From Lichina pygmaea (Eukaryota; Ascomycota; Lichinomycetes; Lichinales; Lichinaceae): DNA of 64,000 nucleotides. This document shows positions 1,773 to 62,330 of this stretch, piece after piece. The notes under the pieces were generated by a model, which was not told the origin of the DNA, ran no database searches, and saw only the letters and a list, made by a program, of their open reading frames with translations. Made by a program: the position numbers and the translations under genes. Where the stretch lies: positions 3,224,001 through 3,288,000 of the forward strand of contig OY730169.1 in NCBI GenBank assembly GCA_963422465.1, read 5' to 3'. Within the stretch, counting starts at the first letter, position 1, and each line of letters starts with the position of its first letter.

Positions 1773-3725
1773 TTGAGTTGGCCACTCAGGATATCTACTT
1801 AGAGATACCTTGGCTAAAGAAGCATAACCCAGTTGTCAACTGGAAGACAGGAGTACTCACATTTAGGAACTGCACTAACAACACAGCTCAGACCTGTTAC
1901 CAGCCACAGAAGGTGTGGACAGATAAGAGAAGAAGTCCTCAGTGGAACCTCACTGACAGAAAGGATGACTCTCAAGAGAAGAGGTCCACCTTGACAGGCA
2001 CACCCCAGAACCAGATGGCCAAACAGTCAGAGATGAAGAGAGAGGAAGTTGTTAACCCTCTGGAGATCTCTGAAGAGTACTGACCTGGGTATAATAACCT
2101 CTTTCAGGAAGAGATAATAACAGCAGTGTTACCTAAGCACTAATCTTGGGATTATGAGATCAAGTTACAACCAGGGACAGAGCCAGGATTTAGACTAATC
2201 TATCAGTTATCAGAAAAAAAGCTCTAAGTACTTTGCGAGTACCTGGAGAAGAATCTGAAAAAGGGGTTCATTCAAGAATCTTAATCACCAGGAGGATACC
2301 TGATACTATTTGCACTAAAGGAAGACAGAAGTCTTCAACTTTGCATGGACTACAGGAAACTCAACAATATTACCATCAAAAACTGATATCTGTTGCCAAA
2401 TACAAACAAATTACAAGACAGGATCAGCCAAGCTACAATCTTCACCAAGCTGGACTTGAAAGAAGTATACAACCTGATACACATGAAAAAAGAAGAAGAA
2501 TAGAAGACAGCTTTCAGAACCTGATACAGACACTACAAGTATCTGGTTGTGCTATTCAGACTCACAAACACACCAGCAACATGTCAAGCCTTGATCAACA
2601 ATGTTATCAGAGCACACCTGGACTAAACAGCTATCACCTACCTGGACAACATTCTTGTCTACTCAAACACATAACAGGAACATACCAAACATGTGAAGGA
2701 TGTTCGATGATGTCTACAAGAGGCAGAGCTCAAGCTCAACCTGAAGAAATACAAGTTCAACAAACTGGAAGTTGAATTCCTCAGATACATCATAGGGATT
2801 GAAGAGATCAAGATCAACCCTGAAAAGATCAAAGTGATTCAGCAATAGCTAACACTAACATTAGTTAAGGAAGTACAAGTCTTCCTAGGATTTGCCAACT
2901 TTAATCAACAGTTCATCAAGAACTACTCACAGATAGCAACACCACTGACAGAACTCACAAAGAAGAACATGGAGTACTGGTGGACGGAGAGATAACAAAA
3001 AGTATTCTAGCAGCTCAAGAATGCTTGCACCAAGGAACCAGTTCTTCTTAACTTCAAGACAGGCCAGCTGACACAAATCAAAACAGACACTTCAGACCAA
3101 GCAGTGGGAATATGCCTATGCCAGCAAGCAGATGGCAAGTGGCACCCAGTTGCCTACTACTCACGCAAAATGTCACAAGTGGAACAAAACTATAATATCC
3201 ACAACAAAGAGCTACTGGCAGTTGTCAACACACTTGAACATTGGAGAGTGTATGTGGAAAGTAGTTCTGAACTCACTATCCTCACAGACCACAAGAATCT
3301 GATAATGTTCACAACAACCAAGAAGCTGAACAGACAACAAGTTAGATAGGCTGAACTTCTGGGGTAACACAAGTTCAAGATCATGTACACCCCCAGACAG
3401 GATAATAGAAGAGCAGACACACTAAGCTGACAAAAAGACTACATGCAAGATGATGAATGTCAAGGAACAATCTTACAGCAGGGCCAGCAAGGAAACCTGG
3501 TGCCTTAACCACAGATCAACAAGCTCACAGCAGAAGATACTGAAGAACTGATAAGGAACTACCATGACAACCCAGCACATGGTTACCCAGGAATCACCAA
3601 GACTACAGACCTTATCCAACAGGCAGGAAACAATGTTATCAACCTCTGACAACATGTCACAAGCTACATCAACAAGTGCCTACCATGCCAGAAAAATAAA
3701 CATGGAAGACACAAGCTATATGGAG

Positions 3726-4269
3726 TGTTGCGGTCCGTACCGTACCGTCCTATCTGAGTATAGGATTAGGGCGAGAGGTGGAAGGCGGGTTGGTTCTCGC
3801 AGGAGAGGAGTGTCAAGGAGCGCGAAGGGGTTTGGTGGAACGTGGTGGTGGTGACACCTGATCAACAGCTTTGTACAAAAGGATTGTATTGAAGTAGATC
3901 TAGTTGTCTGGATCACAACATGAGTTGAAGACGATCATTCCATAGGGGAACTATCGCCTGGCTATATAGTGCCCAGTTTGTGAGCAGAGTGAGCTCTGCT
4001 CACTTTGCTCACTTTTCATGCACGCTGCGGTGAGCAGGGTGAGCTCTGCTCACTTTGCTCACTTTTCATGCACGCTGCGGCGAGCTGGGTGAGCTCTGCT
4101 CACTTTGCTCACTTTTCCGTGCATATGCATGCTGCGGCGAGCACCCCCTGGTTTGTCTCGCCGGTCACGTGACCGGTTCCCGTGTCACGCTGTCTGGTAC
4201 TTCTGTCCAGTATCCTGTCTGCTGCTTTCTGTGAGTATATAAAGACTGTGTTCCTCCTGGGTCGTAACA
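3726..4269 (-). repeat. 3' LTR of the young family-1 gypsy
   Basis: A 544-bp LTR with TG...CA ends. It contains three tandem units of about 50 bp (3981-4030, 4031-4080, 4081-4137) with the palindrome GAGCTC in each. It carries two TATA-like elements in opposite directions: CTATATAG around 3963 serving the element's own direction (minus), and TATATAAAG at 4236-4244 pointing toward the antisense gene at 4313. Confidence 0.93.
4236..4244 (+). promoter_or_regulatory. TATA box for the antisense gene, inside the LTR
   Basis: TATATAAAG lies 26 bp before the LTR end and 69 bp before the ATG at 4313. Transcription starting about 30 nt downstream would begin right at the LTR/internal boundary. The older family-1 variant at 51689 has TATAAAT (52253-52259) in the equivalent place, so the position is conserved between subfamilies. 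An out-of-frame upstream ATG (4300) opens a 13-codon reading frame that overlaps the main start, which could dampen translation. Promoter activity is inferred. Confidence 0.55.
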
Positions 4270-4312
4270 CTATCCTCCTCTCCATCTTTCATCATCCCGA
4301 TGAAATCTGGTC

Positions 4313-4717
4313 ATGCCTCCAAAGTCACGTGCGACTGTTAGCCGAACTCAGCTGGCTGCTCAAATCTGCGATCAGGGTTTTGTTTCGCGTACGCCCTGCG
4401 ACTTTTGTGTTCTCCGTGGTCGTCCGTGCTTCCAGATGCCGGGAGAAGACGATAAGTTGAAATGTGCTACGTGCACTCGGCGCGGAAGGTCTTGTGTCTC
4501 TGTGTCCTGGGAATCTTTGAACATGTCCCGGGACAACCTCTGTGAGGATGTTGCCGCTGACGAGGCAACACGTGATGCACTCTTTGAACAACTTGCCACA
4601 GTGCAGGCTTGTCTGTCTCGGAAGCGAAAGGTGTTGGAGGGCGCCGAGGTCTGTGCGAGGCAGAAGCTTCAGTGCTTGGTGAAAGAGATGGAGTCGGATG
4701 GCGAGGATTTGACTTGA
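4313..4717 (+). CDS. Antisense Zn2Cys6-type cysteine-cluster protein carried by gypsy
   Basis: A 134-residue reading frame that runs opposite to the retrotransposon containing it, placed between the pol stop (4755) and the 3' LTR. Residues 29-61 have the spacing C-x2-C-x6-C-x11-C-x2-C-x6-C, which fits the fungal Zn(II)2Cys6 binuclear cluster used for DNA binding. A basic run (TRRGR) precedes the last cysteine. Residues about 70-130 are charged and helical, with a basic patch (SRKRK) and a likely coiled coil, as in dimerising Zn2Cys6 factors. The gene and pol converge with a gap of about 37 bp. Homologous decayed frames lie at the same place in the other family-1 copies, and a diverged intact one lies in family 2 (42796-43305), which argues for function. 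The role is unknown; a DNA-binding regulator of the element is my inference. Confidence 0.75.
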   Translation: MPPKSRATVSRTQLAAQICDQGFVSRTPCDFCVLRGRPCFQMPGEDDKLKCATCTRRGRSCVSVSWESLNMSRDNLCEDVAADEATRDALFEQLATVQACLSRKRKVLEGAEVCARQKLQCLVKEMESDGEDLT

Positions 4718-7700
4718 TCAGTCATTGACACGTCCCTCCTGCAGGCCGAGCTGTTCAGTCCTGCTCCTGCCGAAACTGTCGCAGAAGAAGCTGGCAGTTC
4801 ACGAGGTTCTTGAGTGGTTCCCAGGTATTTTCTGAGTCTGGGTATCCTTTCCACTTGACGAGGTATTGCTGACCTTTCCTAGCCAGGATCTGTTCAACCT
4901 CAAACTCTTGTTCTTCTTCGGGTTGGTAATGGAATGTTTCCTGCAAGGGTGTGCTTTGGTCGGCTGGTTCAATCATTGATATATGAAAGTTTGGATGGAC
5001 TCTGGCATCCCTTGGTAATCGCAGTCTGACGTTGACTGGTCCAGTTCTTTCTTCAACTGAAAATGGTCTGACCTTAACATGGTCCAGTTTCTTTGTTCTT
5101 GGTTTCTTCGTTTTCCAATTTCTTGTGAGGAGGTAGACTTTATCCCCCTTCTTTAGCTGAGGTGCCATTTTCGATTTCTTGTCCATCTGACGTTGCATTT
5201 TTTCTGAGGTCTCTTGAAGGTAGTGCCTCATCATCGTGTGTGTTTGTCGTAGGAGCTTATCGTGTTGGAGTGCTTTCTCCGTGTTTGGTGAAGCTCTGCT
5301 TGGCATCCCGATGTTTGCATGTCGTCCAAAATTGGCAAAAAATAGCGATTCCTTTGTTGAGTCTGATCTGTGCTGGTTGATTGCCAGCTGTGCCACCGGT
5401 AATAACTGTACCCAATTGCTGTGGGTTTTGTTGATGTAATGCTGTAGGTAAGTCTCCAGGACTTGGTTCGCTTGCTCCGTCTGGCCGTCGGTTCGTGGGT
5501 GATAGGCTGTAGACATTTTGGGTTTTGTTCCTATGGCTGCACTGATTGTCTTCCAGTAGTTGGATGTGAAGAGTTTATCTCTGTCTGTAATGATCGTGAT
5601 TGGAACTCCGTGGTCTCTGACTAGTCTGTCCAGTAAGAGGTGTCCCAACTGTTCTGCTGTGTGGGTCTCCTTGAATAGTACTGTTATTAGATATTTTGTG
5701 AATCTGTCCACTATCACCATAATCAAGTTGTAGGTGATTCCTGTGACTGGGTCTTTGGACTTGGGTAGCTTTGTGATGAAGTCCATTGACACGTCTTCCC
5801 ACGGGCCTCTCGGTATCGTGTTCGGATGTTCTTCTCCGTATGGCTTGTGTCTTCTATATTTGTTTTTCTGGCATAGTAGACACTTGCTGATGTAGTTTGT
5901 GACATGTTGTCGGAGATTAATGACATTGTTCCCTGCCTGTTGGATGAGGTCTGTGGTCTTGGAGATTCCTGGGTGACCATGTGCTGGATTGTCGTGGTAG
6001 TTCCTTATTAGTTCTTCAGTGTCTTCTGCCGTGAGCTTGTTGATCTGTGGCTGGGGCACCAGGTTTCCTTGCTGGTCCTGCTGTAAGATCGTTCCTTGGC
6101 GTTCATCATCTTCCATGTGGTCTTTTCGTCGGCTTAGTGCGTCTGCTCTCCCATTGTCTTGTCCAGGGGTGTACAAGATCTTGAACTTGTGTTGCCCTAG
6201 GAGTTCAGCCCATCTGACTTGCCGTCTGTTCAGCTTCTTGGTTGTCGTGAATGTTGTCAGATTCTTGTGGTCTGTGAGAATGGTGAGTTCGGAACTGCTT
6301 TCCGCGTACACTCTCCAGTGTTCGAGTGCGTTGACGACTGCCAGTAGCTCTTTATCGTGGATATCATAGTTTTGTTCCGCTTGTGTCATCTTTTGTGAGT
6401 AGTAGGCAACTGGGTGCCACTTGCCGTCTGCCTGTTGGCATAGACATGCTCCCACTGCCTGATCTGAAGCGTCTGTCTTGATTCGTGTCGGTTGGCCTGT
6501 CTTGAAGTTGAGGAGAACTGGTTCCTTGGCGCAAGCGTCCTTGAGCTGTTGGAATGCTTTTTGTTGTCTCTCCGTCCACCGGTACTCCACGTCCTTCTTT
6601 GTGAGTTCTGTCAGTGGAGTTGCCATCTGTGAGTAGTTCTTGATGAACTGTCAGTTGAAGTTGGCAAATCCTAGGAAGGCTTGTACTTCCTTAACTGATG
6701 TTGGTGTTGGCCATTGCTGAATCGCTTTGATTTTCTCAGGGTCAATCTTGATCTCTTCGATCCCTATGATGTATCCGAGGAATTCAACTTCCGGTTTGTT
6801 GAACTCGCATTTCTTTGGGTTGAGCTTGAGCCCTGCCTCTTGTAGGCATCGTAGAACATCCTTCACATGTTTGGTATGTTCCTGTTGCGTGTTCGAGTAG
6901 ACAAGAATGTCGTCCAGGTAGGCGATAGCTGTTTGGTCCAGGTGTGCTCTGATGATGTTGTTGATCAATGCTTGACATGTTGCTAGTGTGTTTGTGAGTC
7001 CGAATGGCATAACCAGATACTCGTAGTGTCCGTATCGGGTTCTGAAGGCTGTCTTCCATTCTTCTCCTTTTTTCATGCGTATCAGGTTGTATGCTCCTTT
7101 CAAGTCCAGCTTGGTAAAGATTGTAGCTTGGCTGATCCTGTCTCGCAATTCGTTCGCATTTGGCAACGGATATCAGTTCTTGATGGTAATGTCGTTGAGT
7201 TTCCTGTAGTCCACACAAAGTCGAAGACTTCCGTCTTTCTTTGGTGCAAATAGTATCGGGTATCCTGCTGGTGATTGAGATTCTTGAATGAAACCCTTTT
7301 TCAGGTTTTCCTCCAGGTACTCGCGAAGTACTTGGAGCTTTTTCTCTGATAACTGGTAAATTGGTCCAAATCCTGGCTCCGTCCCTGGTTGCAACTTGAT
7401 CTCATGATCCCAAGGTTGGTGCTTAGGCAACACTGCTGTTGTTGTCTCTTCCTGAAAGAGGTTATCATACCCAGGTCAGTACTCTTCAGGGATCTCCAGA
7501 GGGTTAACAACTTCCTCTCTCTTCATCTCTGACTGTTTGGCCACCTGGTTCCGGGGTGTGCCTGTCGAGGTGGACCTCTTCTTTTGAGAGTTGTCCTTTC
7601 TGTCAGTGAGGTTCCACTGAGGACTCCTTCCCTCATCTGTCCACGCCTTCTGCGGCTGGTAACAGGTCTGAGCTGCGTTGTTAGTGCAGTTCCTAAACAT

Positions 7701-8092
7701 GAGTACTCCTGTCTTCCAGTTAACAACTGGGTTGTGCTTCTTTAGCCAAGGCATCCCCAAGTAGATATCCTGAGTGGCCAACTCGACAATATCAAGGTGG
7801 ATCCTTTCAGCATAGTGTCCGGTAACCATTTCCATTGGCTGCGTCTTATAGCAGACTAGCTCTGTCTGTCCATTTGCCATCGCGAGCTGATAGGGCTGCT
7901 GCTTGCGTCTCCTTCCAGTGCTGAGGGTGTCGTAAAGTTGTCTCGAGATGTAGTTTCCACTGGCTCCAGAGTCAACAAGTGCGTATGTCCGTACTGGCGT
8001 GTTGGTGTATAGTGACACAGGCAATCGCAGGTGCTTTGTGTTGCTAGGGGTCATGTTGTTGAGCTCCCGATGTCGCCCCTTGACAAGGGAGT

Positions 8093-8659
8093 TCAGTCTT
8101 TTCCTGATCGAAGTGTCTTTCCACTGACTGGGCAATGGGTCCAGCCATTCCCATCAGTCCTGAGGAATCCGTTCATGAATTTGTCTTGCTGATGCTTGTC
8201 ACATCCAGGCTTGAGGCAGTACTGCCAATTGTCAACGTAGCAGTTGTAGTTGTTGCCTTGCTGTAGGAACATGAGGCGTTCGTGCCAATCATGTGTGTGC
8301 CCGGGGAATGCGGTGTGTTGGCGTTTGTCCCAAAGATGGATCTCACATGCATCCTTCTCGCAATTGACCCAATGTTTGTGGCAGGTGGCGTGGTAGGGTG
8401 AATGTCCTCCGTACCTTTGTAGTTGTTCGTGGTAGGTGCAGTAGTGCTTCGTGCAAAACCTCCACTGTAGTTCGCCGTGCCGTAGATTTCGTGGGTCCAT
8501 GCTGTAAGCATAGCTTCCTTGTGGTATTTCTTCTTTGATAGACGTGGGTTTGTCTCGGTCCCTATCAGAGGTGGTTAAGGGCTCCTGTCCCTTGTCCTGA
8601 CCTGTTAGTTCTGGTAGGTCCTTGCCTCCTGATGTTGCCAGTTGGTGGGCTGCTTCCAA
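8093..8659 (-). other. Three W-x2-C-x4-C-x2-H repeats between gag and protease (young family 1)
   Basis: This part of the gypsy polyprotein region lies between the gag zinc knuckle and the retropepsin. It contains three copies of the pattern W-x2-C-x4-C-x2-H (WRFCTKHYCTYH, WVNCEKDACEIH, WQYCLKPGCDKH), 30-50 residues apart, with additional His and Trp between them. The spacing suggests three small zinc-binding modules. The retroviral CCHC knuckle is separate and lies upstream, near 8780-8830. The related element at 51689-58228 has the same three repeats (56112-56678); the family-2 elements lack them. The function is unknown; nucleic-acid binding is plausible. Confidence 0.7.
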
Positions 8660-9600
8660 TATCTGATCGTAGTTGTCCTATTGTTCGAGGGATAGCTGAG
8701 CCTCTCCTGGTGGGTCCTCTGGCTCGATGACATTCCAGTCTCTGTCGAGCGTATTAAGTTGCTGTCGGTGCACCTTGTTCTTTGAACGACAGTCTTTCGC
8801 CATGTGGCCTAGCTTGCCACAGGCATAGCACTTCAGTGCTTTCCCCTTTTTGTTGTTCCTTCCCTTCGTGAACCTTCCCTTGTGGTGGACTGCATCCAGT
8901 TCCATGGGTGCATAGCCATATGGGTCATGTGGTGGTGCCTTGTTAGGCGGCTTGTAGTGGTTGCTCACATGCCATGCGGGGTGGCTGTATCCTCTGTCGT
9001 GGTGTTTCTCCATCGCTCGCTCGAATAGTTTGTCATCAATGTTGATTGCTTGTGCGATGAGTTTGTCCAGTGTGTCGACTGCTCGTCCGTCAAAGGTGAT
9101 TTCATCCTTCACGTTTTCCTTGAGTCCACGTCAGTACATGACCATCAGGGCGTCGTTGTCCCAGTCGGTCAGTACTGAGTATTGTTTGAACTGCGTGGTG
9201 TACTCTGCGGCTGAGCATTGTTGTTTGATGTGCTGGATCATTCGTATAGCCACTTTGTCTTTGTTAGATGGTCCAAGGATCCTTTTGATCTTGTCCTTGA
9301 ATCACGTCCATTTTGTCATCCATTCCGTTGTGCCGTCGTGGTCTCCGTTTCCTGAGAGATGTTTGTTGACGTAGGGCTTGATCCATCGATAAGTATTGCC
9401 TCTCATGTAAGTGGTTGCGAAGAGGGGCCACTTCTCCTTAGGCAGCTTTGTCTCTGGTTGGAATTGAAAGTAGACTTGGAGTTGCATGAGCCAATCATCG
9501 ACCTTGTTCCTTTCACTGTAGAACAGGTCTGGCTTGGCGACGCTAATCTTTCCATCTGGGAAGTTGGGGTTGGTTGCTCCTGAGGTACTCATCCTTGAGG

Positions 9601-9610: not shown

Positions 9611-10154
9611 TGTTGCGGTCTGTACTGTACTGTCCTATCCAAGTATAGGATTAGGGCGAGAGGTGGAAGGCGGGTTGGTTCTCGCAGGAGAGGAGTGTCA
9701 AGGAGCGCGAAGGGGTTTGGTGGAACGTGGTGGTGGTGACACCTGATCAACGGCTTTGTACAAAAGGATTGTATTGAAGTAGATCTAGTTGTCTGGATCA
9801 CAACATGAGTTGAAGACGATCGTTCCATAGGGGAACTATCGCCTGGCTATATAGTGCCCAGTTTGTGAGCAGAGTGAGCTCTGCTCACTTTGCTCACTTT
9901 TCATGCACGCTGCGGTGAGCAGGGTGAGCTCTGCTCACTTTGCTCACTTTTCATGCACGCTGCGGCGAGCTGGGTGAGCTCTGCTCACTTTGCTCACTTT
10001 TCCGTGCATATGCATGCTGCGGCGAGCACCCCCTGGTTTGTCTCGCCAGTCACGTGACCGGTTCCCGTGTCACGCCGTCTGGTACTTCTGTCCAGTATCC
10101 TGTCTGCTGCTTTCTGTGAGTATATAAAGACCGTGTTCCTCCTGGGTCGTAACA
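9611..10154 (-). repeat. 5' LTR of the young family-1 gypsy
   Basis: A 544-bp LTR, about 98% identical by eye to the one at 3726-4269, with the same three 50-bp tandem units. It is followed at 10155-10159 by the target duplication TGGAG. Confidence 0.93.
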
Positions 10155-11239
10155 TGGAGAAGGACACCTGAACACAATACCAAGAGACTCTTGGGAAGAT
10201 GTCTTAATAGACTTCATCACAAAGTTACCCAAGTCCATAGACCCAGTCACAGGAATCACCTACAATTCAATTATGGTGATAGTGGACAGATTCATAAAAT
10301 ACCTAATAACAGTACTATTCAAGAAGACCCACACAGCAGAACAATTAGGATACCTCTTACTGGACAGATTGGTCAGAGACCACAGAGTTCCAATCATGAT
10401 CATTACAGACAGAGATAAACTCTTCACATCCAACTACTGGAAGACAATCAGTGCAGCCATGGGAACAAAATCCAAAATGTCTACAGCCTATCACCCACAG
10501 ACTGATGGCCAGATGGAGCAAGCAAACCAAGTCCTGGAGACTTACTTGCAGCATTACATCAACCAGACCCACAGCAATTGGGTATAACTATTACCAGTGG
10601 CATAGCTGGTAATCAACCAGCACAGATCAGACTTGACAAAGGAATCACTATTCTTTGCCAATTTTGGACAACATGTGAATATCGGAATGCCAAGCAGAGC
10701 TTCACCAAACATGGAGAAAGTACTCCAATATAACAAGCTCCTACAACAAACACACATGATGATGAGACACTACCTTCAACAGACCTCAGAGAGAATGCAG
10801 CGCTAAATGGACAAAAAATTGAAAATAGCACCTCAGCTAAGAAAGGGGGATAAAGTCTACCTCCTCACAAAGAATTGGAAAACAAAAAAGCCAAAGACAA
10901 AAAAACTTGACAACATCAAGGTCAGACTATTTTTGGTTGAAGAGAAAACAGGACCAGTCAACATCAAGATACAACTACCAAGGGATGCCAGAGTCCATCT
11001 AAACTTTCATATCTTAATGATTAAACCAGCCGACCAGAGCACACCCTTGCAGGAAACATTTCATTACCAGCCTGAAGAAGAGTAGGAGTTCGAAGTCAAA
11101 CAAATCCTGGCTAAGAAAGGTCAGCAACACCTTGTTAAGTGGAAAGGATACCTGGACTCGGAAAATACCTGGAAACCACTCAAGAACCTTGTGAACTGCC
11201 AGCTCCTTCTGTGACAGTTCCACCAGGGGTAGGACTGAA

Positions 11240-11670
11240 CAGCTCAGCCTGCAGCGCGGATACATCAATGACTGTTGCCGACAAGTCCTCACCCTCTGCC
11301 TCCATTTCAGCGACAAGGCACTGGAGTTTCTTCTTTGCTCAACCCTCAGCTCCTTCGAGAACCTTCCGCTTTCAGGACACATAAGCCTGCAGCTTGGCAA
11401 GCTGCTCAACAAGAGCATCCTGCTTGGCCTCATCAACAGCCAGATCATCGCAAAGGTTATCCTGAGTCATGTTCAGTGACTCCCAAGAAAGCAACACACA
11501 GGACTTCCCATGACAAGTGTATTCAGCGCACTTCAACTTATCGTTGTTGTCAGACATTCAGAAACAAGGCTTGCAGTTCAAGGTACAGAAGTTACACGGA
11601 GCAAGTGACAGGAAGTTGCGATCACGAATCTGGGCTGCCAGTTGCTTTCGGTAAACAGAGGCATGTGATT
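11240..11670 (-). pseudogene. Decayed antisense cysteine-cluster gene (older family 1)
   Basis: This is the homologue of the gene at 4313-4717, opposite to its plus-strand host element and just inside the 3' LTR. The cysteine cluster and the helical tail are both recognisable. The copy is broken, in line with the rest of the element. Confidence 0.7.
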
Positions 11671-11724
11671 TCGCAGGCATACTCAAGAATTCATCAAGAC
11701 GATGAATGAAGGGGAGGAAGGTAG

Positions 11725-12247
11725 TGTTACGATCTCTGGGAAGAGGAGCCACTCATTTATACAGGCATCGGGCCTTGGGCTGGACAAGAGACCACCGTGG
11801 AGTCAAGTGACCAACCAACAAAAGGTCACGTGACTATCAAGACAAACACGTGTGGCTTGACACAGCATGCATGACACATCGAGACAATCTCACCAGTCTC
11901 AATGCAGGATGCATGAAGAGTTGAGACAATCTCACCTGTCTCGACACAGGATGCATGACATGGTGGGACTGTCAAGACAATCTTGATTGTCTTGACAGGC
12001 CAGTACTATATAGCCAAGCGATAGTTCCCTTATGGAACGATCGTCTTCAACTCATGTTGTGATCCAGACAACTAGATCTACTTCAATACAATCTTTGTAC
12101 GAAGCTATTGATCAGGTGTCACCACCACCACGTTCCACCAAACCCCTTCGCGCTCCTTGACACTCCTCTCCTGCGAGAACCAACCTGCCTTCCGCATCTC
12201 GCCCTCATCCTATACTCGGATAGGACGGCACAGTACAGACTGCAACA
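11725..12247 (+). repeat. 3' LTR of the older family-1 gypsy
   Basis: A 523-bp LTR, starting TGTTACGA and ending TGCAACA. Its U3 holds units of about 42 bp (motif GAGACAATCTCACC...GATGCATGA) instead of the 50-bp units of the young copy, so it belongs to the same U3 type as the element at 51689-58228. Confidence 0.9.
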
Positions 12248-13160
12248 TGTTCCTTATAAGAGAGGGTGACACTGGCTTGGAGATCTTATCTGAAGACACC
12301 AACAAATTCAAGGTAGCCACCAATATTGTCTCAGCCCCACCCCTATCATACTGAATTTGCAAGGAAGTTTTTGCCTCAGGGAACACACTACACACCCACC
12401 TGCACACATCCAACTGCCTGGTCTCTAGAGTGGCACTCCAGAGTCTGCTGTCACTGAACACCAACAGAACAATTGACTGAAAGTCTATGACAGTACAGCC
12501 ACCTAGTGGCAAGACTGCAGCAGGATCTAGGCAGGCAGAAGAGAACCTGAAATTGCCAGCCCAAGACCCAAGCACCACAGGTGACAGTGTGGTGCAGGAA
12601 AATAAGGATGTTGGCTCTGCAGTCATCAAGTTGTCAGCAGAGCCTGTGAAAGAAGATAGCTTCATGTTCAGAGGATAGTCCTACATAGTGGCCAAGGTGT
12701 GGTTCAGCAAGAAAGGAACTGAGGAGGATGTCTGTATGGACTCCAGCTGTGTGATGTCAGTTATCAACAAAAGATTCCTGCAACAGGTAGCCCCAGGTGC
12801 AGCTGTCCAGCACCCCAAAACCACGATCTACATGAGAGGTCTCAGAGTGAAAAAACACACATCTAATAAGTATGTGGTACTTGACCTCTTCCCAGTGGAG
12901 ATGCAAGGAAAGCTCTTGCTGGCCCAGATCACACAAGAGTTCCACCTAGTTGATCAGCTTGACATGAACATACTTGTCAGAATGGATGTTCAGAGCCCTG
13001 AAGGCATCCTGCTCAATTGCCTTGAGGGCACCATCACATTCCAAAAGACTGACAACACTGTCACAAAGGCCATGACAGAGACTCAAGCAGCAAGACCTGT
13101 CAAAGCACTTGTCAGAACCAAAGGTGTGACTAGGCTGCAGTCTAGGACTGTCACAAACAT
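12248..13160 (+). mobile_element. Old gypsy fragment with retropepsin-like domain, left part
   Basis: Plus-strand sequence unrelated in detail to families 1 and 2. The frame at 12688-13157 resembles the retropepsin domain of fungal gypsy elements: an Asp followed by small residues and MSVI, then a Leu-rich beta pattern with VVLDLF. The fragment resumes at 15334 after a LINE insertion. It is a degraded fossil and appears to be the oldest layer of the left nest, because both the older family-1 element and the LINE lie in it. Confidence 0.6.
13147..13160. repeat. 14-bp target-site duplication of LINE (left copy)
   Basis: The 14-mer ACTGTCACAAACAT occurs here and again, exactly, at 15320-15333. 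It brackets the LINE at 13161-15319 and so defines both ends of that insertion. Confidence 0.95.
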
Positions 13161-15319
13161 TTTATTTTATTTTATTTTATTTGATTCTTACACTGGTAGT
13201 AGCTTTACAGCCATGCAGATCTTCTAGCTAATAGTGAACTCCTTCAGAAAACCTTTGAAGAGATAAAAACTGAAGGCAGGGTGTGACTAGGGAATGTAAC
13301 AAAAGAAATCTTGAAGTTTCTGGTAAGAGAAGAGAATCTAGGTATTGGATTGGGAATAGTGGAGTTTGAAAGCTAGATTAAACTGGTTTAGTCTTTTCAA
13401 AGACATAAACCAGTACAAGAACTTCTGTAGTAGCTCTGGGTTTGAAATAATAGTGGTGAAGTCTTGGGGATTAAAAGAGACTTGTTGTCTTTGTCTTGAA
13501 TAAAGAGAGCATGAAGAGGTGATATGTTTTGCAGTTTCTTCTGCTTGGCCACACACACATAGTGGGGTAGGGAAGTCAGGAGCTCCAGCTCTGAAAAGAA
13601 AACTTGCCAGACCAATTCTTCCAGTCCTGATTTGCAGTAGCAGACTTGCCTCAGCTTTCTGTAACTCTTTGTAGAGCTTCAGATTGTTTTTGTGTGGCTT
13701 TTGACAGAAAGTCTGCCAGCCTGGATAGCTTCTTCTTTTCTTCTCTTCCCATTGGTCTTCCCACTCTTTAGTAAAGAGCTTTTGTAGTTCTTTCTTTGAA
13801 CTAGCCTGGTTAGTAGTTATTTGACTTAACCAAGTGAATTTCCACTTAGGAGAGATAGTTGAGGATTCCTTTAAAGGTTTCTTCAAGAGAGAGGCATAGC
13901 TGGAAATAGTGGAAAAGATACTGTCAAGAAAGTATTTGAGAGGGGAGTTTTGAATAGAAGAAAGAAAACAGGCAGTGCGAAATTTAAAGTATAGGTCTAG
14001 AGGTAGAAGAAAAAGCTCACTCTCTAATAGAAAAGAAGGAGTGGCTTTGAAGGCACCCCCAATAAGTCTTAGGCATCTGTTTTGAAATGAAACAAGAGAA
14101 GAGATATTGGAGGATTTTCTTAGAGGGTTAAACCAGATCCCCACTGCATAGCTCAGTAGAGATCTCAGTATAGCAGTGTACACCAGACGTGATGTGTGAA
14201 CTGGAAAGCCCCAAGTAGAATAGGAAGTTCTAGAAAGAGAAGAGAGTGCTTTCTGTGCTTTTTGAAGAATAATCCTCTGGTGTTTGTGCCAGTGGAGCTT
14301 TGCATCTAGGTACACTCCAAGTACTCGCACTTCTTCTTTTGGTTTGAGAATCACATTCCCCAGTCTGAGCTTGAGCTGAAGATTGTCTGATCTTCTTCTG
14401 GAAAAATGAAGTATTTCATATTTCTCAGGTGAGAAGACCATTCCATGTCTTGCAGCCCAGGATAGACATTTGTGGTGTGTGTTCTTTAACTTCAGAAGGT
14501 TACTTTTCAAGGAGTGACCAAAAGCAAGCAGATTTGTATCATCTGCAAACCCCAGGGCAGATACACCAGAAGAGGGAGTATGCACAGTCTCATGCAATTC
14601 AGAAATGTAGAATAGAAAAAGAATAGAGGATAATGGAGAACCTTGAGGAACTCCACAATGAATAGGAATAGAATAAGACTCAGAATCATCAAAGACAAGA
14701 GTGGTAGAGCGCTTATCACAGAAGGAGTAGATCCAGGAAGCTAGCCAGGCAGGTATTTCCTTTTCTTTTCAGAATTTGCTGTAGTATCTTGGGGAGAACT
14801 CTGTCATAGGCTCCTGAGATATCCAGTGAGAGTAGGGATGCAACCATGCCTTCCTTCCAGACTTTTTCCACTTGGGAGGTTAGAAGGAAAAGTGCTGCTT
14901 CTGTGGATCTTCCTTTCCTAAAGCCCATCTGGATATCTGGCAATAGTCCAGCTTCTTCTGCTATCTTGCTTAGTCTGGCTGCAGCAATAGCTTCCATCAG
15001 CTTGCCTGTTGTGTTTAGCAGAGCTATAGGGCGCCAGGCTTTAGCTTGATTGTAGGTTCCCTTGCCAGGTTTCCTCAAGCAGACTGTTTTTGCACTCTTA
15101 AATCTTTCAGGGAAGTACTCCAGTTTCCAGCATGTTGAAGTCAGAATAGCTAGAGCTTGGCAGAACCTAGGCCCCAGAGCTCTCAGAAATCCATTTGGCA
15201 GCTTATCTCTCCCTCCTGCTGTGAAAGGTTTCTTCTTGGCCAGAATTTGCTCCACTTCTTCACATGTTACCTCCTGGGAGAGCTGTATCTCAGAGATAGT
15301 CTGGGAGCTTTCTGAGCCT
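13161..15319 (-). mobile_element. 5'-truncated LINE with 14-bp target duplication
   Basis: A minus-strand non-LTR retrotransposon copy of 2.16 kb. It ends at 13161 with an A-rich (AAATA)n tail preceded by GTAAGAATCAAAT, and is 5'-truncated within ORF2 at 15319. It contains reverse transcriptase and the C-terminal region of ORF2. The closest relative in the window is the LINE spanning 42016-60033, and the two are nearly identical over long stretches, so the insertion is fairly recent. Truncation, A-rich tail and variable-length duplication are the marks of target-primed reverse transcription. Confidence 0.95.
13338..15319 (-). pseudogene. LINE ORF2 fragment (reverse transcriptase and C-terminus)
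   Basis: Two reading frames cover the fragment. 15319-14716 carries the first RT motifs (RPIALLNTTGKLMEA, GFRKGRST, LSLDISGAYD). 14597-13338 carries the catalytic motif FADDTNLLAF and the C-terminal region, including a cysteine/histidine stretch (CVCGQAEETAKHITSSC). They are in different frames because of a net +1 shift near 14760, in the run that reads AAAAGGAAATACC on the minus strand. The other LINE at 58430-58450 has exactly the same run and shift. The fragment has no endonuclease domain and cannot be autonomous. Confidence 0.9.
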
Positions 15320-15333
15320 ACTGTCACAAACAT

Positions 15334-26662: not shown

Positions 26663-29048
26663 GGGAATCCCGCTGACAAGGTTGAATCGACTGTGAAGAA
26701 GTCGAAGAAGAAGAGGAGAAGAAGAGCCTAGAGGAAAAGGCTGCAAAGAAGGGCCTAGAGGAAAAGGCCGTAAGGAAGGGCTAGCCACGACGTTAGCAGA
26801 AGGCAAGCCAATAGGATGGAAGACAAGAAGGAACAGGGCAGGAAGGTCCTGCTCCGGGGCCCAGAGAACTATGAAGACTGGGCACAAGTTATCAGGATGC
26901 GGCTATTGGCCGCAAGAGTCTGGCACACTGTCCTTGTAGAGCCAGAAGAGTCAGAGATGAAGCCTGCCCAAACGTCAGCAACAGGATCCAAAGGTCAACG
27001 GATCGAGGCCACAAAGGAGTGGCAGGATAGCAAGGCAGAAGAAGGAAAGGCAGCAGACATCATACTGTCGTCAATTAGTGAAGAGCAGCAAAAACACGTC
27101 AGACGGATCAAGCACCCCTACCACATCTGGAAGACCCTGAAAGGGATCCACGAACGGCCGAACAACGAGAAGCTGCACAACACGATGGTACAGCTGTTTT
27201 CGAAGGACCTCGGCCGAACAATCGAAGAGAGAGGGTCGAGGATCCGTGTGCTCAATGCTGAAATAGAGAGCTACGACTCGACACTGAAACTGCCGGAAAA
27301 GACATTAGTGATCCTGCTCCTAGAGTCGTTGACGCCAGAATACGACACCATGAAGAAGATCCTCATAACGACAGATCAGATCGACGAACTGGACAAGGTC
27401 CTGCAGAAGTTAGCAGGAGAAGAGGCACGGATTGTCAAGGGAGAAGTGGAGCAGGCACTGGCTGTCCGTAAAGAGGGCAAAGGACGGAGCAAGGGCTGAC
27501 GAGACGGAAAGGACATGAAGTGCTTCCGGTGTGACCGGACAGGGCACAGGAAGTCTGAATGTTTCGCGACACAGTCAGCAGACGGAACCCCATTGGAGGA
27601 CAAACCCCTGGTGAAACCCAGGAAGAGAGGGGAGAAGGCAAGAGCGGCAACGTACCGGGAGGATGAGGAAGGAGAGAAGACCTACCTCACTTGCCTTGTA
27701 CCGGAGCTGGTGATCGGGGAACCACGGACGAGTGATTGCATTGTTGACAGCGGTGCGACCCGACACATGAGCTGGGATCTCGGACTATTCGTTGAGTTGA
27801 AACCCATGGGAGGCCACCTGTCAGTAGCCAACGGAGACAGGCTTGCGATCAAAGGTGTAGGAACTGTACAGACCCGGTTCAACCAGCAGAGCGGTGTTGC
27901 GACAGTCACAGGAGTGCTGTACGTACCTGGATTGACTGCCAACTTGATGTCAGTTTCAGATCTGGACAAGAAGGGGTTCGAGACAACAACAAAGAATGGG
28001 GAGATGGCCATAATAAAGAATGGCAGAAGAAGGGTAACGGCCAGAAGAGAAAAGGGCACGTACCACTTGAAGGCAAATGGCGAGGTAGTCCTCGCGACGG
28101 GACAGGAGAGCCCGACCGGCGGGGCAGGACAGGAGAGTCCTGCAGACGCGAAGAAGAAGACCTGGCACCGGAGGCTAGGGCATGCAAGCAAGGCTGTCAT
28201 GAAGAGGGCAGCACTCACCGGCAAACTCGAAGGGTTCGAGTACGATGAGGAGGAAGTCGAGAACTGTGAGGACTGCATATTAGCCAAAATGCAGAAGACT
28301 CCGGAAGAAGGCTGAAGCAACAACGACAAGAAAGCTTGAACTGGTGCACACCAATGTGTGCGGACCTCTGCAAGATGAAGGGTACGACGGATCACGGTAC
28401 CTGCTGACGATGATTGATGACTGGACCCGGATGACGTGGGTGTATCCCATGAAGCTCAGGAGTGAGCTACCCGTCACTTTTGGCAGCTGGAAAGCCATGG
28501 TGGAACGGGAATCCGGCGAGAAGCTGTGCAGGATACGGTGTGACAACGCCAAAGAATACATCAGTCAGTACTTGAAGCGTCTGAAGCCAGAGGGAGTAAG
28601 AGAAGAACCCACCGTGCCGTACAACCCACAGCAAAACGGGGTTGCCGAGCGGTATAACCGAACGATTATCGGTTGGGTGAAAGCGATGTTGGCGGACGCG
28701 GAGCTGCCGATGCAGCTGTGGCCCGTAGCAGCCCAGACGTCAGCGTACCTGGACAACAAGCTGCCACACGGGGACAGGAAGGACTTGCCGGAAGGAGAAT
28801 GGACAGGACGGACTGTCAACGCAGGCCATCTGAGAGCCTTTGGGTGTGTCGCATACGTGCATATACTGAAGGAGAAGAGGAAGAAGTTAGATCAACTGGC
28901 CTGGAAAGGAGTAATGGTGGGGTACCGGGGTAATCACATTTACCTGGTATGGAACCCGGAGACAAAGAAGATTGCGGCTGCAGCGTCCGTACAATTCATG
29001 GAAGAGATCGTGGGACAACGAGCGCAGGTGTGACCTAAGGAGAAGGTC

Positions 29049-29139
29049 AGCATTGAGGGGGGGTGGCCACGGGTCACCTCAGGGCCCGAGCACAGCATTG
29101 AGGGGGGGGTGGCCACAGGTCACCTCAGTGCCCGAGCAA
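29049..29139. repeat. Two tandem units of about 45 bp in the copia element
   Basis: AGCATTGAGGGGGG followed by GTGGCCAC and GGTCACCTCA occurs twice in a row (starting at 29049 and 29094) with a few differences. Confidence 0.8.
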
Positions 29140-29691
29140 AGGAGAGAGAGACAGGTGCAAGGTGTACCTGATCAGTCGGACGAACCAGACAAAGAAGACA
29201 GTGACGAAGAGTCAGTAAGATACGACGCGGAAGGGACGGAAGACTCACCTTGGCAGCCCCGACAAGGAGTGGCTGAAGGACCAGCTGAAGCACCTGAGGA
29301 AGGAGCTCAGGAGTCGAACAAGTCCGAAGGAAGAGGTCGTGTGGAGCCTGAAAGAAGTCCACAAGAGAACAGGGCCACAGACAAGGCCACGAAGGAAGGG
29401 TCTGAAAGGGCACAGGAAACAGAGCCAGCGAGGCGGAGTACGCGGATCCGCAAGGCAACAGGGAAGGCAAAGGAAGGTGCCTTTGCAACAGAAGAGCGAG
29501 GTGCTGTGGCGCCCGTACCGACGATTCCGGGGTCGTACGAAGAAGTGGTGAACGACACGGTTTTCGGACACAAATGGAGGAAAGCTACTGAGAAGGAATT
29601 GAGTCAGTTAGCAAGCTTCAAGACGTGGAGACTTGAAGACCTACCTGCTGGAAAGAACCTGGTTAGTTCCAGGTGGGTATTTGACCTGAAG

Positions 29692-30807
29692 GCCTGCAAC
29701 GACTCGAACCTCCACGTGGTGCAGGCTGGGAACCTCGGGGCAGTCGATGGCGGGCGGCTTCCCAGGCTGCTCGTAGTCGCTGCACCAAGAGCTAATCAAG
29801 TCACCGGTCGAGCTGCTGGTGTTGCGGAGCGACGGGCCACCGGAGGTGTCGCGCAGGCACCCTGGATGCCCCCGTGAAACACCTACAGCAGAACAGAGGA
29901 CTGCGACCAAGCTTGGGAGAGGAAAACCACCCGACAGACGACTACCGTGTACGCTACGGCCCGAAGCCAGCCCCACAGCTGGTGGATGTGAAGTCTAGGT
30001 GTCTGATAGGGCACCTCTGGAGTAGTCGAGAGGAGTTCTCGTCACGTCACCCTCCTAGCAGAGTCTCCAGCTAACGCGTGAGGATCTGCTAGGGGGGGAG
30101 TGGCCTTGGCACCGCGGCGTTGTTAATCGAACAGGGACCACCTGTTAAAGAAGGAGAGTGGTCGTACGAGGAGACGTCACCGCTCCAGTGCCTAAGGGCC
30201 GTGTGATAGCCAAAGTGCTGGCTTGATGGTTTTGCCTAAGGCCTTGCCACGAAGTCTCTTCGTACAATCCACAATCTGGGGCCAGGGGACTGGGTTATCC
30301 AGTGGGCCAACAGGTGCAACCGGGGCTCCACAGGTGACAGTGGACCAAGGAGAACTCCTCCCTACTTGGTTAGTGGGCTGGAAAGGCGGCCCTGCAGGTG
30401 CTGGCACGGCCTGCAGGATCTGTAAGGCCTGCGAGGCATGGTCAGCCTTCGTACGAGAGATCTGCGAAGGTAACACAAAACAGTTAACAACTGCGAGGCG
30501 TGGCATATAATGGCAGTGACGGAGGTAGGGCCTGGGCCTACTACGAGACTGTCTATATGGCCCGAGAGGACGGATGCGCATACCGGTTCATACGGAGTGC
30601 AGGCTTAGGCTGCAAACGACAAGCTCAGGGAGCAAACTACAGTTGGAGCGTGGGCTCTGGGCTGGTGACCCAGCGCTCCGAAGCAGGATCCCAGGGGTGA
30701 GCACGTACGGCGGAGTGCAAGAGACCTCGGGACTGTGGGAAAGCGTGGTAGAGACCCTGTGGGGGGGTGCCAACTCTACACTATGTTCTGGCATAGTACG
30801 ACTGTGG
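29692..30807. other. Unidentified 1.1-kb segment between copia and LINE
   Basis: GC-rich sequence without a recognisable domain. A polypurine run (TAGGGGGGGAG, about 30090) resembles a retroelement polypurine tract, but no LTR pair is visible. It begins right after the 12-mer TTTGACCTGAAG and leads without a clear break into LINE sequence at about 30808. The best frames (29874-30074 plus, 30192-30581 minus) match nothing I know. Confidence 0.4.
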
Positions 30808-39141: not shown

Positions 39142-39200
39142 ATCAACATACCCAGAAAAAAAGCTACTGAGATCTTGGAAGACTCTAGCCAAGAGGATTA

Positions 39201-42015: not shown

Positions 42016-42177
42016 GAGAGAGTCTCAGGATAAGAGGAATAGTTAGAGTCTGACTGACTCTGGAGCTAGCAGAGTCTTTGGCTCAAGGAAAGTCTAGATA
42101 GGGGGTCTGGTCCCTAGTCTAGGTTAATACTTCTAGCTTTGCCCAGAGCTTAGTTGGAAAAAGCTGCCCAGGAAAGT

Positions 42178-42671
42178 TGTTAAAGGCCGGGCCGGGTTCA
42201 CACAGAAACCGGTACGGTCTGTTGCTTTGTGGGCGGATTCTAGGACAGGGGCTCAGTAGAGGAATAGACAGGTGGGGTAACTCTCCTGTACTATTGTCTC
42301 CGTACGATGGGTTTGTATTGTGTTCAGCCTGGAGAGCTAATCCCTCCGGGCTCTTTGGGGGTCTTTATACAGATGCCCCAAGGGGGGGGGTCTTCTCGAG
42401 GGGTATCATCCTTTTGTGTGGACAAGCTCCTCGCTTAGCTCCTGCTCGTCCACCGGACAAGCTCCTCGCTTAGCTCTTGCTCGTCCACCGGACAAGCTCC
42501 TCGCTTAGCTCCTGCTTGTCCACCGGACAAGCTCCTCGCTTAGCTCTTGCTTGTCCACCAGACAAGCTCCTTGCTTAGCTCTTGCTTGTCCACCGGATCG
42601 GTCGGATGTTGTTCCGCATGACTAACACTCCTCCCTCGCTTACCTGGGCTGTTCCGGCCTAGGCCTTAACA
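42178..42671 (-). repeat. 3' LTR of family-2 gypsy
   Basis: A 494-bp LTR with TG...CA ends. It contains five exact-length 35-bp units (42421-42595; unit GACAAGCTCCTCGCTTAGC and 16 further bases). Confidence 0.93.
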
Positions 42672-42795
42672 CTATCCCCTCCCTCCAAGGGTTCTGTCCC
42701 CAGATCCTTTTCGTTCCTGCTCCTCTTTTGCCATGAACCAAAGCCAGACAACTTGAACTCGTCGCCGTGGTTTTCTCTCTTGTCATGTTGGCAAA

Positions 42796-43305
42796 ATGGG
42801 CAAGGAATCAAAGATCACATGCGGTGCTTGTCGTCGCGACCACGCCAAGTGTGTCGTGAGTTCCGCATCGTCTTTTTGTCGTCGGTGCATCAAGAAGGGT
42901 CATCACTGTGACCTTCATCTCTCAGAATCAGAATGGAAGAAGATGGAGCTTGAGCGTGAGCAGCTCGAGGCTCAGCTGCGGGAGACTGATGACCAACTGT
43001 CAAAGCTGCTTCCCCGGCAGATCCACCTCCGCCGGCAGCTGGGTCGTCTCTCACAGAAGGAGGCTGATGCCATCTGTCGTGAGCTGTCAGCCATCAAGGA
43101 TCAAGAGTCCCTTGATGCTCAGGAACAAGAGGCCCTCCGCGTTATCCACGAACGGGAGGCCTGTCAAGCTGCTGCTCCACTGTCCTTTGAGGACGTCTTC
43201 TCTTCGGAGGCTTTGGCTTCTCTCAAGCTGTTGTCTCTGTCAGACCTGGTCACTGCGGATTTGCTTGGTGGTAATCCACCAGTTTCTGGTTCATCGCAGA
43301 GCTGA
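42796..43305 (+). CDS. Antisense Zn2Cys6-type cysteine-cluster protein, family-2 gypsy
   Basis: An open frame of 169 residues, opposite in direction to the retrotransposon holding it. Residues 9-38 read C-x2-C-x6-C-x8-C-x2-C-x6-C with basic residues between, the spacing of the fungal Zn(II)2Cys6 DNA-binding cluster. Residues about 42-120 are strongly heptad-like and charged (ESEWKKMELEREQLEAQL), a likely coiled coil for dimerisation. An acidic/leucine-rich end follows (LSFEDVFSSEALASLKLL), which could be an interaction surface. Its 3' end overlaps the end of pol by about 55 bp, on the opposite strand. It shares position, orientation and architecture with the family-1 gene at 4313-4717, though the sequences are much diverged. 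Partner and function are unknown. No TATA box is seen close to its start. Confidence 0.75.
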   Translation: MGKESKITCGACRRDHAKCVVSSASSFCRRCIKKGHHCDLHLSESEWKKMELEREQLEAQLRETDDQLSKLLPRQIHLRRQLGRLSQKEADAICRELSAIKDQESLDAQEQEALRVIHEREACQAAAPLSFEDVFSSEALASLKLLSLSDLVTADLLGGNPPVSGSSQS

Positions 43306-48055: not shown

Positions 48056-48063
48056 AGGCTGAA
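48056..48063 (-). other. Primer-binding site core, self-priming type (family 2)
   Basis: On the minus strand the bases after the 5' LTR contain TTCAGCCT. Its complement AGGCTGAA lies in the LTR at 48211-48218 (minus-strand reading), about 39 nt after TATAAAG, that is, near the predicted mRNA 5' end. The distance matches family 1 although the sequence is different. Confidence 0.6.
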
Positions 48064-48065
48064 AC

Positions 48066-48559
48066 TGTTAAAAGCTGGGCCGGGTTCACACAGAAACCAG
48101 TACAGTCTGTTGCTTCGTGGGCGGATTCTAAAACAGGGGCTCAGTAGAGGAATAGACAGGTGGGGTAACTCTCCTGTACTATTGTCTCTGTACAATGGGT
48201 TTGTATTGTGTTCAGCCTGGAGAGCTAATCCCTCTGGGCTCTTTGGGGGTCTTTATACAGATGCCCCAAGGGGGGGGGTCTCCTCAAGGGGTATCATCCT
48301 TTTGCGTGGACGAGCTCCTCACTTAGCTCCTGCTTGTCCACCGGACAAGCTCCTCGCTTAGCTCTTGCTCGTCCACCAGACAAGCTCCTCGCTTAGCTCC
48401 TGCTCATCCACCGGACGAGCTCCTCACTTAGCTCTTGCTCATCCACCGGACAAGCTCCTCGCTTAGCTCTTGCTTGTCCACCGGATCAGTCGGATGTTGT
48501 TCCGCATGACTAACACTCCTCCCTCGCTTACCTGGGCTGTTCCGGCCTAGGCCTTAACA
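48066..48559 (-). repeat. 5' LTR of family-2 gypsy
   Basis: A 494-bp LTR with five 35-bp tandem units (48308-48482). A TATA-like element (TATAAAG on the minus strand) lies near 48250. The LTR is followed by the AAAGT duplication. Confidence 0.93.
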
Positions 48560-51688: not shown

Positions 51689-52287
51689 TGTTGCGGTCCG
51701 TACTGTACCGTCCTATCCGAGTATAGGATTAGGGCAAGAGGTGGAAGGCAGGTTGGTTCTCGCAGGAGAGGAGTGTCAAGGAGCGCGAAGAGGTTTGGTG
51801 GAATGTGGTGGTGGTGACACCTGATCAATGGCTTTGTACAAAGGATTGTATTGAAGTAGATCTAGTTGTCTGGATCACAACATGAGTTGAAGATGATTGT
51901 TCCATAAGGGAACTATCGCCAGACTATATAGTGCTGGCCTGTCGAGACAATCAAGATTGTCTTGACAGTCTCAACGTCAAGACGGGTGAGATTGTCTTGA
52001 CAGTCCCACCATGTTATGCACCCTGCGTCAAGACTGGTGAGATTGTCTCGATGCTTCATGCATCATGTGTCAAGACTGGTGAGATTGTCTTGATGCTTCA
52101 TGCATCATGTGTCGAGACTGGTGAGATTGTCTTGATACTTTATGCATCATGCGTCAAGACTCCTGTGTGTGTCTTGACAGTCATGTGACCCCTTGTTGGT
52201 TGGTCACTTGACTTCCATGGTGTCCTCTTGCCTGGCCCACGGCCTGATTGCCTATAAATGAGTGGCTCCCATCCCTGGGTCGTAACA
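51689..52287 (-). repeat. 3' LTR of second family-1 gypsy
   Basis: A 599-bp LTR. It has three tandem units of about 42 bp (about 52027-52150, motif GTCAAGACTGGTGAGATTGT) plus related flanking pieces. It has TATA-like elements in both directions: TATATAG near 51925 for the element itself, and TATAAAT at 52253-52259 toward the antisense gene. Confidence 0.92.
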
Positions 52288-52331: not shown

Positions 52332-52832
52332 ATGTCTGCAAAATCATGTGCCTCTGCTTACCGAAACCAACTGGCAGCCCAGATCTGTGATCATAACTTT
52401 GTGTCGCTTGCTCCGTGTGACTTCTGTGTTTTGAACCACAAGCCCTGCTTCTGAATGTCTGACAACAACGATAAGTTGAAGTGCGCTGAGTGCACTCGTC
52501 AGGGAAAGTTCTGTGTGTCACTTTCTTGGGAGTCGCTGAACATGACTCAGGATAACCTTCGCAAGGATTTGGCTGTTGATGAGGCCAAGCGGGATGCTCT
52601 TGTCAAGCAGCTTGCCGAGCTGCAGGCTCATGTGTCCCGAAAGCGAAAGGTTCTTGAGGGTGCTGAGGGTCAAGCAAAGAAGAAGCTCCAGTGCCTTGTT
52701 GCTGAAATGGAGGTGGATGGTGAAGACTTGTTGGTGACAGTCATTGATGCGTCCGCACTGCAGGCCAAGCTGTTCAGTCCTGCTCCTGCCAGAACTGCTG
52801 CAGGAGGAGCTGGCAGTTTGCGAAGTTCCTGA
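52332..52832 (+). pseudogene. Decayed antisense cysteine-cluster gene (second family-1 copy)
   Basis: The homologue of 4313-4717 in the same relative position. The cysteine cluster (CDFC, CAECTRQGKFC) and the basic/helical tail are both recognisable. It is broken. The C-terminal extension beyond the homologue's end runs toward the pol stop. Confidence 0.75.
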
Positions 52833-61805: not shown

Positions 61806-62330
61806 TCAGCCCTGCGATGAACCAGAAGCTGGTGGATTACCACCAAGCAAACCTGCAGTGACCAGGTCTGATAGTGACAACAGCTTGAGAGAAGCCAAAG
61901 TCTCTGAGGAGAAGACATCCTCAAAGGACAGTGGAGTAGTAGCCTGACTGGCCTCCTGTTCACGAATAACACAGAGAGTCTCCAGCTTCTGAGCATCAAG
62001 AGACTCTTGATCCTTGATGGCTGACAGCTCACGACAGATGGCATCAGTCTCTTTCTGAGAGAGACAACCCAGCTGCTGGCAGAGGTGGATCTGCTGGGGA
62101 AGCAACTTTGACAATTGGTTATCAGTCTCTCGCAGCTGAGCCTTGAGCTGCTCACACTCAAGTTCCATCTTCTTCCATTCTGATTCTGAGAGATGAAGAT
62201 TGCAGCAACAACTCTTCTCAACACACCGACAACAAAAAGATAATGCAGAGCTCACAACACACTTGGTGTGATTGCAACAACAAGCACCGCATGCAATTTT
62301 CGATTTCTTGCCTATTTTGCCAATGTGACA
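61806..62330 (-). pseudogene. Decayed antisense cysteine-cluster gene (family-2 fragment)
   Basis: A close relative of 42796-43305, on the strand opposite its host element. The coiled-coil part is well conserved (ESEWKKMELECEQLKAQL). It is broken in the N-terminal part. Confidence 0.75.

Follow-up and report, generated by a model that had tools for sequence, protein, structure and literature searches.

What does a small gene do for a retrotransposon when it lies on the strand opposite to gag-pol, in the narrow interval between pol and the 3' long terminal repeat (LTR)? The question is raised by a reading frame in a 64,000-nucleotide stretch of Lichina pygmaea DNA (contig OY730169.1, positions 3,224,001 to 3,288,000), here called the window, where the frame sits in an element that we name E1. 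The original prediction described 134 codons antisense to gag-pol, placed between pol and the 3' LTR and carrying six cysteines in the spacing C-x2-C-x6-C-x11-C-x2-C-x6-C, and all of this was confirmed. We propose, with a probability of roughly 0.6, that the gene encodes a protein which regulates its own U3, whether positively or negatively. The parts of E1 are the following.

4313..4717, plus strand: antisense gene of type F1, a shortened copy with an ATG start and 134 codons
3726..4269, minus strand: 3' LTR of E1, which pairs with the 5' LTR at 9611-10154
3721..3725: target-site duplication TGGAG, second copy at 10155-10159
4270..4287, minus strand: purine-rich tract adjoining the 3' LTR, probably the polypurine tract
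4755..9592, minus strand: gag-pol of E1, split into several frames in this copy

E1 belongs to the Ty3/gypsy group, is 6.4 kb long and lies on the minus strand, and its two LTRs are 98.2% identical, their exact ends having been set by eye. The pol piece at 4755-6626 (minus strand) contains RNase H, integrase, SH3 and Chromo domains, and because it ends in a C-terminal chromodomain (PF00385, residues 575-620 of 623, E 4.7e-16, at the C terminus of the integrase) E1 is a chromovirus. The frame had been described as open within a decayed element; it is indeed open, but decay of the element is partial, gag-pol being broken and the LTRs still 98% alike. The ATG lies 43 nucleotides past the LTR edge, and the cysteines are residues 29, 32, 39, 51, 54 and 61, with the same numbering in the relative P0001. 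The stop codon that ends the frame is absent in 7 of 30 sampled F1 copies, in all 30 sampled copies of a second type, F2, and in the long relatives, which have a V-I-D motif in common past this point. Judged by these comparisons, the window frame is a shortened form of a family product of about 166 amino acids, the far end of which overlaps pol, a correction to the original prediction.

We found the copies by searching the genome to which the window belongs (32.5 Mb in 8 contigs). Type F1 gave at least 150 matches; the best 150 all have at least 80% identity, and 41 of them have no stop. The query P0015 also gave at least 150 matches, and of the best 150 about 130 are of type F2 and about 20 of type F1 as judged by frame lengths. 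Two further types are B, with at least 150 matches at 77% identity or more, and C, whose 61 copies are 85-94% identical to P0091 and in 53 cases have no stop. A comparison of the F and B proteins did not establish common ancestry. Besides E1, the window holds these genes and LTRs of the same group, where E2 (51689-58228) and E3 (42178-48559, gene type B) are whole elements.

52332..52832, plus strand: antisense gene of type F2 in E2, interrupted in this copy and open from 52455
51689..52287, minus strand: 3' LTR of E2, cassette type F2
42733..43305, plus strand: antisense gene of type B in E3, this copy open from 42796 (169 amino acids)
42178..42671, minus strand: 3' LTR of E3, type B
61806..62255, minus strand: antisense gene of a further type B copy, E4

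The type B genes (42733-43305 and loci L031-L045) have two in-frame starts, for 190 and 169 amino acids, and 8 of 14 copies, the one in the window included, have a stop between these two starts. Positions 1-1775 are the 5' end (gag and LTR) of another B-like element, with a gag 87% identical to that of E3 and a 3' end outside the window. This element was tried as partner of the upstream type C gene and rejected, as the LTRs match only partly (72%).

For closer comparison we used 30 loci each of F1 and F2, in both cases the best 30 of 150 matches, and because they were chosen by similarity to the query gene, better-kept copies are favoured. Loci L069 and L075 had two anchor matches each, of which one apiece was retained, and the L075 copy ends short upstream. 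For B we used 14 of 15 loci, and for C 7 of 11 stretches (L096 was treated apart and three were off the anchor); the type C results come from eight copies of the gene and a single LTR stretch. In all 60 F1/F2 loci pol adjoins the gene, and in 59 a typed U3 is on the opposite flank; these loci were selected by gene and are not a survey of all elements. In the copies sampled, relatives thus persist at the same place, as had been predicted. Of 88 stop codons in the 60 copies, 84 are of one C-to-T type, a pattern that would be expected from decay after insertion.

The codon pattern shows the antisense frame to be a conserved gene under purifying selection. Over 900 F1-F2 pairs the median ratio of nonsynonymous to synonymous substitution (dN/dS) was 0.11 (0.06-0.16), a rough value because the synonymous sites are near saturation (proportion of differences, pS, 0.71). 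The bias between codon positions is the firmer sign, with 15.0, 7.1 and 28.8 transversions per pair at positions 1, 2 and 3. Between B and C (98 pairs) dN/dS was 0.27, so that the ratio is far below 1 between types, and within types it was 0.44-0.46 for F1 and F2, 0.36 for B and 0.58 for C. The higher values within types are as expected if copies decay after insertion. The last 18 codons, which overlap pol, are an exception, and their constraint follows pol and not the antisense frame (w 0.16 versus 0.90).

A chance open frame, or the shadow of a gene on the sense strand, is extremely improbable as an explanation. The other five frames gave F1-F2 values of 1.26, 1.62, 1.04, 0.22 and 1.97, and the low one, in a reverse frame, is what such a shadow might produce; a matching reverse frame was found between B and C, at 0.38 with the remaining frames at 1.07-1.75, in a comparison that covers dN/dS and not stop counts. 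However, the reverse frame with 0.22 has the same third codon position as the antisense frame, it is interrupted by stops in 60 of 60 F1/F2 copies, and its second position is more variable than its first, while the antisense frame is kept in relatives. For F1 and F2 the frame tests led us to reject this explanation. The selection on the protein frame, with dN/dS well below 1, also speaks against the idea that it is the antisense transcript that matters, through double-stranded RNA and silencing; such roles are discussed in the available part of PMC7264820, and we regard this as very unlikely here.

A link between the gene and the LTR is seen when F1 and F2 are compared along the element. Over the 60 copies, R-U5 (0.96) and pol past about position 5073 (0.93-0.95) are as alike between types as within them, but the types have diverged in U3 (0.53-0.55), in the gene (0.64-0.72) and at the end of pol (0.82-0.87). 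The two elements in the window show the same pattern: divergence between the cassette types starts at about 3940-3960 in E1, and E1 and E2 are 90-98% identical per 200-nucleotide step in gag-pol past 5126. In all 59 copies that could be classified the U3 type agreed with the gene type, the sixtieth copy being L075 with its short upstream end. In the IQ-TREE trees the F1/F2 label changes once in U3, once in the gene and 7 times in pol (5100-6050), and in FastTree once in the cassette, 5 times in pol and 15 times in R-U5, where the signal is low. A single F1 clade in the pol tree was marginally rejected (approximately unbiased test, AU, p 0.04). On these trees and alignments, the gene and the U3 half of the LTR are inherited as one exchangeable cassette, with most of gag-pol and R-U5 common to both types.

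During reverse transcription the 3' end of the RNA is the template for U3 in both new LTRs, and the 5' end is the template for U5. Since U3 and the gene lie side by side in the 3' part of the genomic RNA, a single template switch close to the pol end would carry the regulator and its sites together into a new element; the new U3 would come to stand in both LTRs, and gag-pol and R-U5 would be retained. Co-packaging and template switching are discussed for the crapaud element of Podospora (PMC10787394, in the part available).

The neighbourhood of gene and U3 also weighs against our proposal. The gap between them is just the 43 nucleotides mentioned above, and since adjacency alone could keep them together, the lack of mismatched copies says little about whether the two are tied by function. 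In crapaud, variation is mostly limited to U3, with exchange, R-U5 is common and there is little tie to the internal region, according to the available part of PMC10787394. Our elements resemble crapaud in U3-limited variation and a shared R-U5; antisense genes go unmentioned for crapaud, the term antisense being absent from the text of that paper. The link could thus be passive, with a gene that has another role, such as nucleic-acid chaperone, import of the integration complex or RNA export, and with host factors acting on the U3 repeats. We consider this possible, though on the unlikely side, and the U3 sequences and the predicted fold of the protein both bear on it.

Each of the U3 regions examined carries a tandem array of its own that shows dyad symmetry. 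The arrays and the candidate promoters in the window are these.

3980..4129: three 50-bp tandem U3 units with GTGAGC...GCTCAC inverted arms (E1, F1), also at 9865-10002 in the 5' LTR
51941..52185: U3 array of E2, repeated GTCAAGAC-N10-GTCTTGAC-like units
42420..42597: U3 array of E3, 35-bp units with GCTTGTCC-ACC-GGACAAGC
3963..3968, minus strand: palindromic TATATA box, assigned to the sense strand from its position
4236..4243, plus strand: antisense TATA box TATATAAA of E1
52253..52258, plus strand: antisense TATAAA of E2, 79 nucleotides before the ATG

The type C array has 17-nucleotide arms and a 12-nucleotide spacer. When the units were compared with 1000 dinucleotide shuffles, none equalled the dyad of F1, of the first F2 unit or of C, and 5 equalled that of B; for a later F2 unit 62 shuffles were as good. 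All 30 F1 stretches and none of the 30 F2 stretches contain the F1 pattern; the F2 pattern is present in 29 of 30 F2 stretches and in none of the 30 F1 stretches. For type B, the GCTTGTCC-type arm is present in 14 of 14 loci and the GGACAAGC-type arm in 8. The half-site GGACAAGC is common to B and C, three times in the single C stretch, and the B and C proteins are alike in the cysteine region. The alignment of the B and C LTRs runs to about the first 10 nucleotides of the arrays, the first half-site included, and the rest of the arrays cannot be aligned. That the dyads are specific to the type, and that B and C have a half-site in common, argues against a merely passive link. By our reading, 10 of 11 Tandem Repeats Finder (TRF) rows with a period of 35-50 in the window lie in LTRs of these elements.

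In all 30 sampled F1 copies a TATAAA lies 75 nucleotides before the ATG, and in 29 of 30 F2 copies one lies 79-80 nucleotides before it, which suggests an antisense promoter. In both types the array sits between the sense TATATA and this oppositely facing box. No such antisense TATA was found in the type B elements (14 of 14 loci).

The original prediction of a Zn2Cys6-type protein stood in part. The Zn2Cys6 cluster is defined by C-x2-C-x6-C-x(5-12)-C-x2-C-x(6-8)-C. The window protein fits this spacing, as do 57 of 190 retrieved proteins with a loop of 8, 10 or 11 residues, many of the others being fragments. Homologues are present in public protein data, 24 for F1 and 70 for B, and a profile of the F1 relatives gave 272 matches, of which 120 are listed; all these counts are of proteins, not species. 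All six cysteines are kept in 24 of 26 rows that span the cluster (33 aligned), and in alignment A3 in 9 of 11 spanning rows. P0135 and P0140 are relatives with about 50% identity, and their contigs are about 1.3 kb long. P0173, a partial protein that is attributed by name to a Watsoniomyces obsoletus metagenome-assembled genome (MAG), is too short for a cysteine count.

The predicted model has short helices at each CxxC and a helix of 83 residues (66-148) with a predicted local distance difference test (pLDDT) score near 98, and the cysteine head is modelled with low confidence, at 50-65. In a Foldseek comparison with the PDB, 17 of 23 matches, ranks 1-14 without a break among them, are Zn2Cys6 proteins, all at E 0.47 or worse; the 17 include 6gys_B and 1cld, which we take to be Cep3 and LAC9. 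The type B model had GAL4 as its top match, a weak one (E 3.6). That the fold matches are DNA-binding domains is a further argument against a passive link to U3. A sequence search of solved structures gave no significant match, and NCBIfam gave only weak matches far under the cut-offs. Pfam Zn_clus (PF00172) had no match for the window protein, 17.6 bits for the type B window protein (cut-off 21) and weak matches for relatives. Thus the spacing and the long helix supported the prediction, but the cysteine head is kept only with low confidence, and because the PF00172 cut-off was not reached we tentatively call the product Zn2Cys6-like and do not assign it to the family. The last 45 residues have a net charge of -3 to -8 in all six proteins examined. 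The cysteine region of P0001 matches DUF3716 (PF12511) at 13.8 bits (cut-off 22), and DUF3716 frames are a possible source of the antisense gene by sequence. Nine places in the genome exceed the DUF3716 cut-off.

The product resembles the fungal Zn2Cys6 regulators Put3, Hap1, Leu3 and Gal4 in its cysteine spacing, in the long helix after the head and in the inverted-repeat candidate sites, and differs in being very short, in lying inside a mobile element and in its weak or absent Pfam match. On the most likely reading, the candidate antisense promoter in the 3' LTR would drive transcription of the gene, giving a product of about 166 amino acids with an N-terminal zinc-cluster-like head, presumably zinc-binding, a long helix and an acidic tail. 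The helix probably pairs into a coiled-coil dimer, which would bind the inverted-repeat units of its own family's U3. In F1 and F2 the dimer would be bound between the sense and antisense TATA boxes and could control both promoters, in one direction or the other. The claim that the protein regulates its own LTR gains circumstantial support from the co-inheritance with U3 and the inverted-repeat arrays, while no pointer was found to the suggested regulation of host chromatin.

If the protein does regulate U3, activation is rather probable, because the arrays lie upstream of the sense box and the tail is acidic, and repression is a fair way from being negligible. A repressor that controls copy number, shutting the sense promoter from the same U3 sites, is included in the probability given at the outset and is by itself unlikely; it would resemble a phage repressor or the antisense HBZ protein described below. 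It would suit the F1 array, which starts only 12 nucleotides from the presumed sense TATATA box, and the shortened, tail-less frame of 23 of 30 F1 copies, forms that could act as inhibitors. The position of the arrays and the acidic tail seem more activator-like, however, and copies with the shortened frame are dispersed over the tree (5 changes, with 43 of 500 shuffles as low), which may reflect recurrent decay.

A more speculative extension is that the cassettes work as exchangeable, immunity-like modules. Each cassette would set its own specificity, and a shared gag-pol could pass to a control that does not cross-react by one template switch; we find this doubtful. Equally doubtful, by analogy with heteroimmune phages, is that swapped elements may escape control by the resident copies. 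As for the phage-type pairing of regulator and operator, co-inheritance and type-specific dyads are observed here, and binding to the sites is inferred.

HBZ of human T-cell leukemia virus type 1 (HTLV-1) is encoded by an antisense gene near the 3' LTR and is a nuclear regulator of the bZIP class. The gene described here has the same position and orientation, but its product is zinc-cluster-like rather than bZIP, and no homology is claimed. HBZ is named in the available part of PMC11963269, which deals with the plant element Retand, whose antisense TRP28 proteins are predicted to bind DNA and are proposed to be regulatory. Another plant element, Grande, carries the antisense gene23 (PMC7264820, in part). 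Like these, our gene is antisense, lies in the interval between pol and the 3' LTR in most copies, and has a product predicted to be DNA-binding or nuclear with a proposed regulatory role, as far as the available parts of those papers go. Unlike TRP28, the four window proteins have no PF04195 match (one F1 protein, E up to 1; two B and one F2, E up to 10), and, compared with the Retand and Grande genes as described there, ours combines a cysteine cluster and a long helix with a short interval, a candidate LTR promoter and candidate U3 sites.

The original prediction named plant elements as carriers of extra antisense frames, but such genes are not limited to plants. Boty of Botrytis cinerea and Sclerotinia carries brtn (Zhao et al. 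2011, as cited in passages of PMC8365987, PMC7264820, PMC4227169 and PMC5987419), which likewise lies antisense in the interval from pol to the 3' LTR, in a chromodomain-bearing gypsy element of a fungus. We compared brtn by description alone, and the citing passages give it no function. Among the papers screened by title and abstract opening, none described an antisense gene of the zinc-cluster kind from a fungal LTR element or the co-inheritance of one with U3, and the words zinc, antisense, chromodomain and gag-pol are absent from the text of a paper on Blastomyces LTR elements (PMC11540331). Accessory antisense genes at this position are thus already known, from what the available passages say of Retand, Grande and Boty, and what is described here is a Zn2Cys6-like version tied to U3.

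What antisense genes in the interval from pol to the 3' LTR do is called unknown in the available part of PMC7264820, which counts Boty among the carriers. For one such accessory protein there is now a plausible fold, candidate sites, a candidate promoter and an evolutionary tie between gene and sites, and the question of function is thereby reduced to a simple binding and reporter test. If the proposal is true, it would explain why such genes adjoin the 3' LTR. It would also imply that high-copy fungal elements bring along transcription factors of their own, which might also affect host genes in the vicinity of LTRs.

The rest of the window is likewise rich in inserted DNA. Matches to the 3' ends of E1 and E2, in inverted orientation, lie at 10156-12256 and 60340-60900, with 42-bp arrays at 11860-11960 and 60638-60796. 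Because of these further fragments the window appears to be a nest of insertions from this element group. Pieces that we named by reading are non-LTR (LINE-like, for long interspersed nuclear element) at 13338-15333, 38011-42053, 48683-51726 and 58600-59857, and copia-like, on opposite strands, at 26816-29877 and 35338-36639. One of the LINE-like pieces was seemingly cut at 51684-51688 by the insertion of E2, with the duplication CAAGA.
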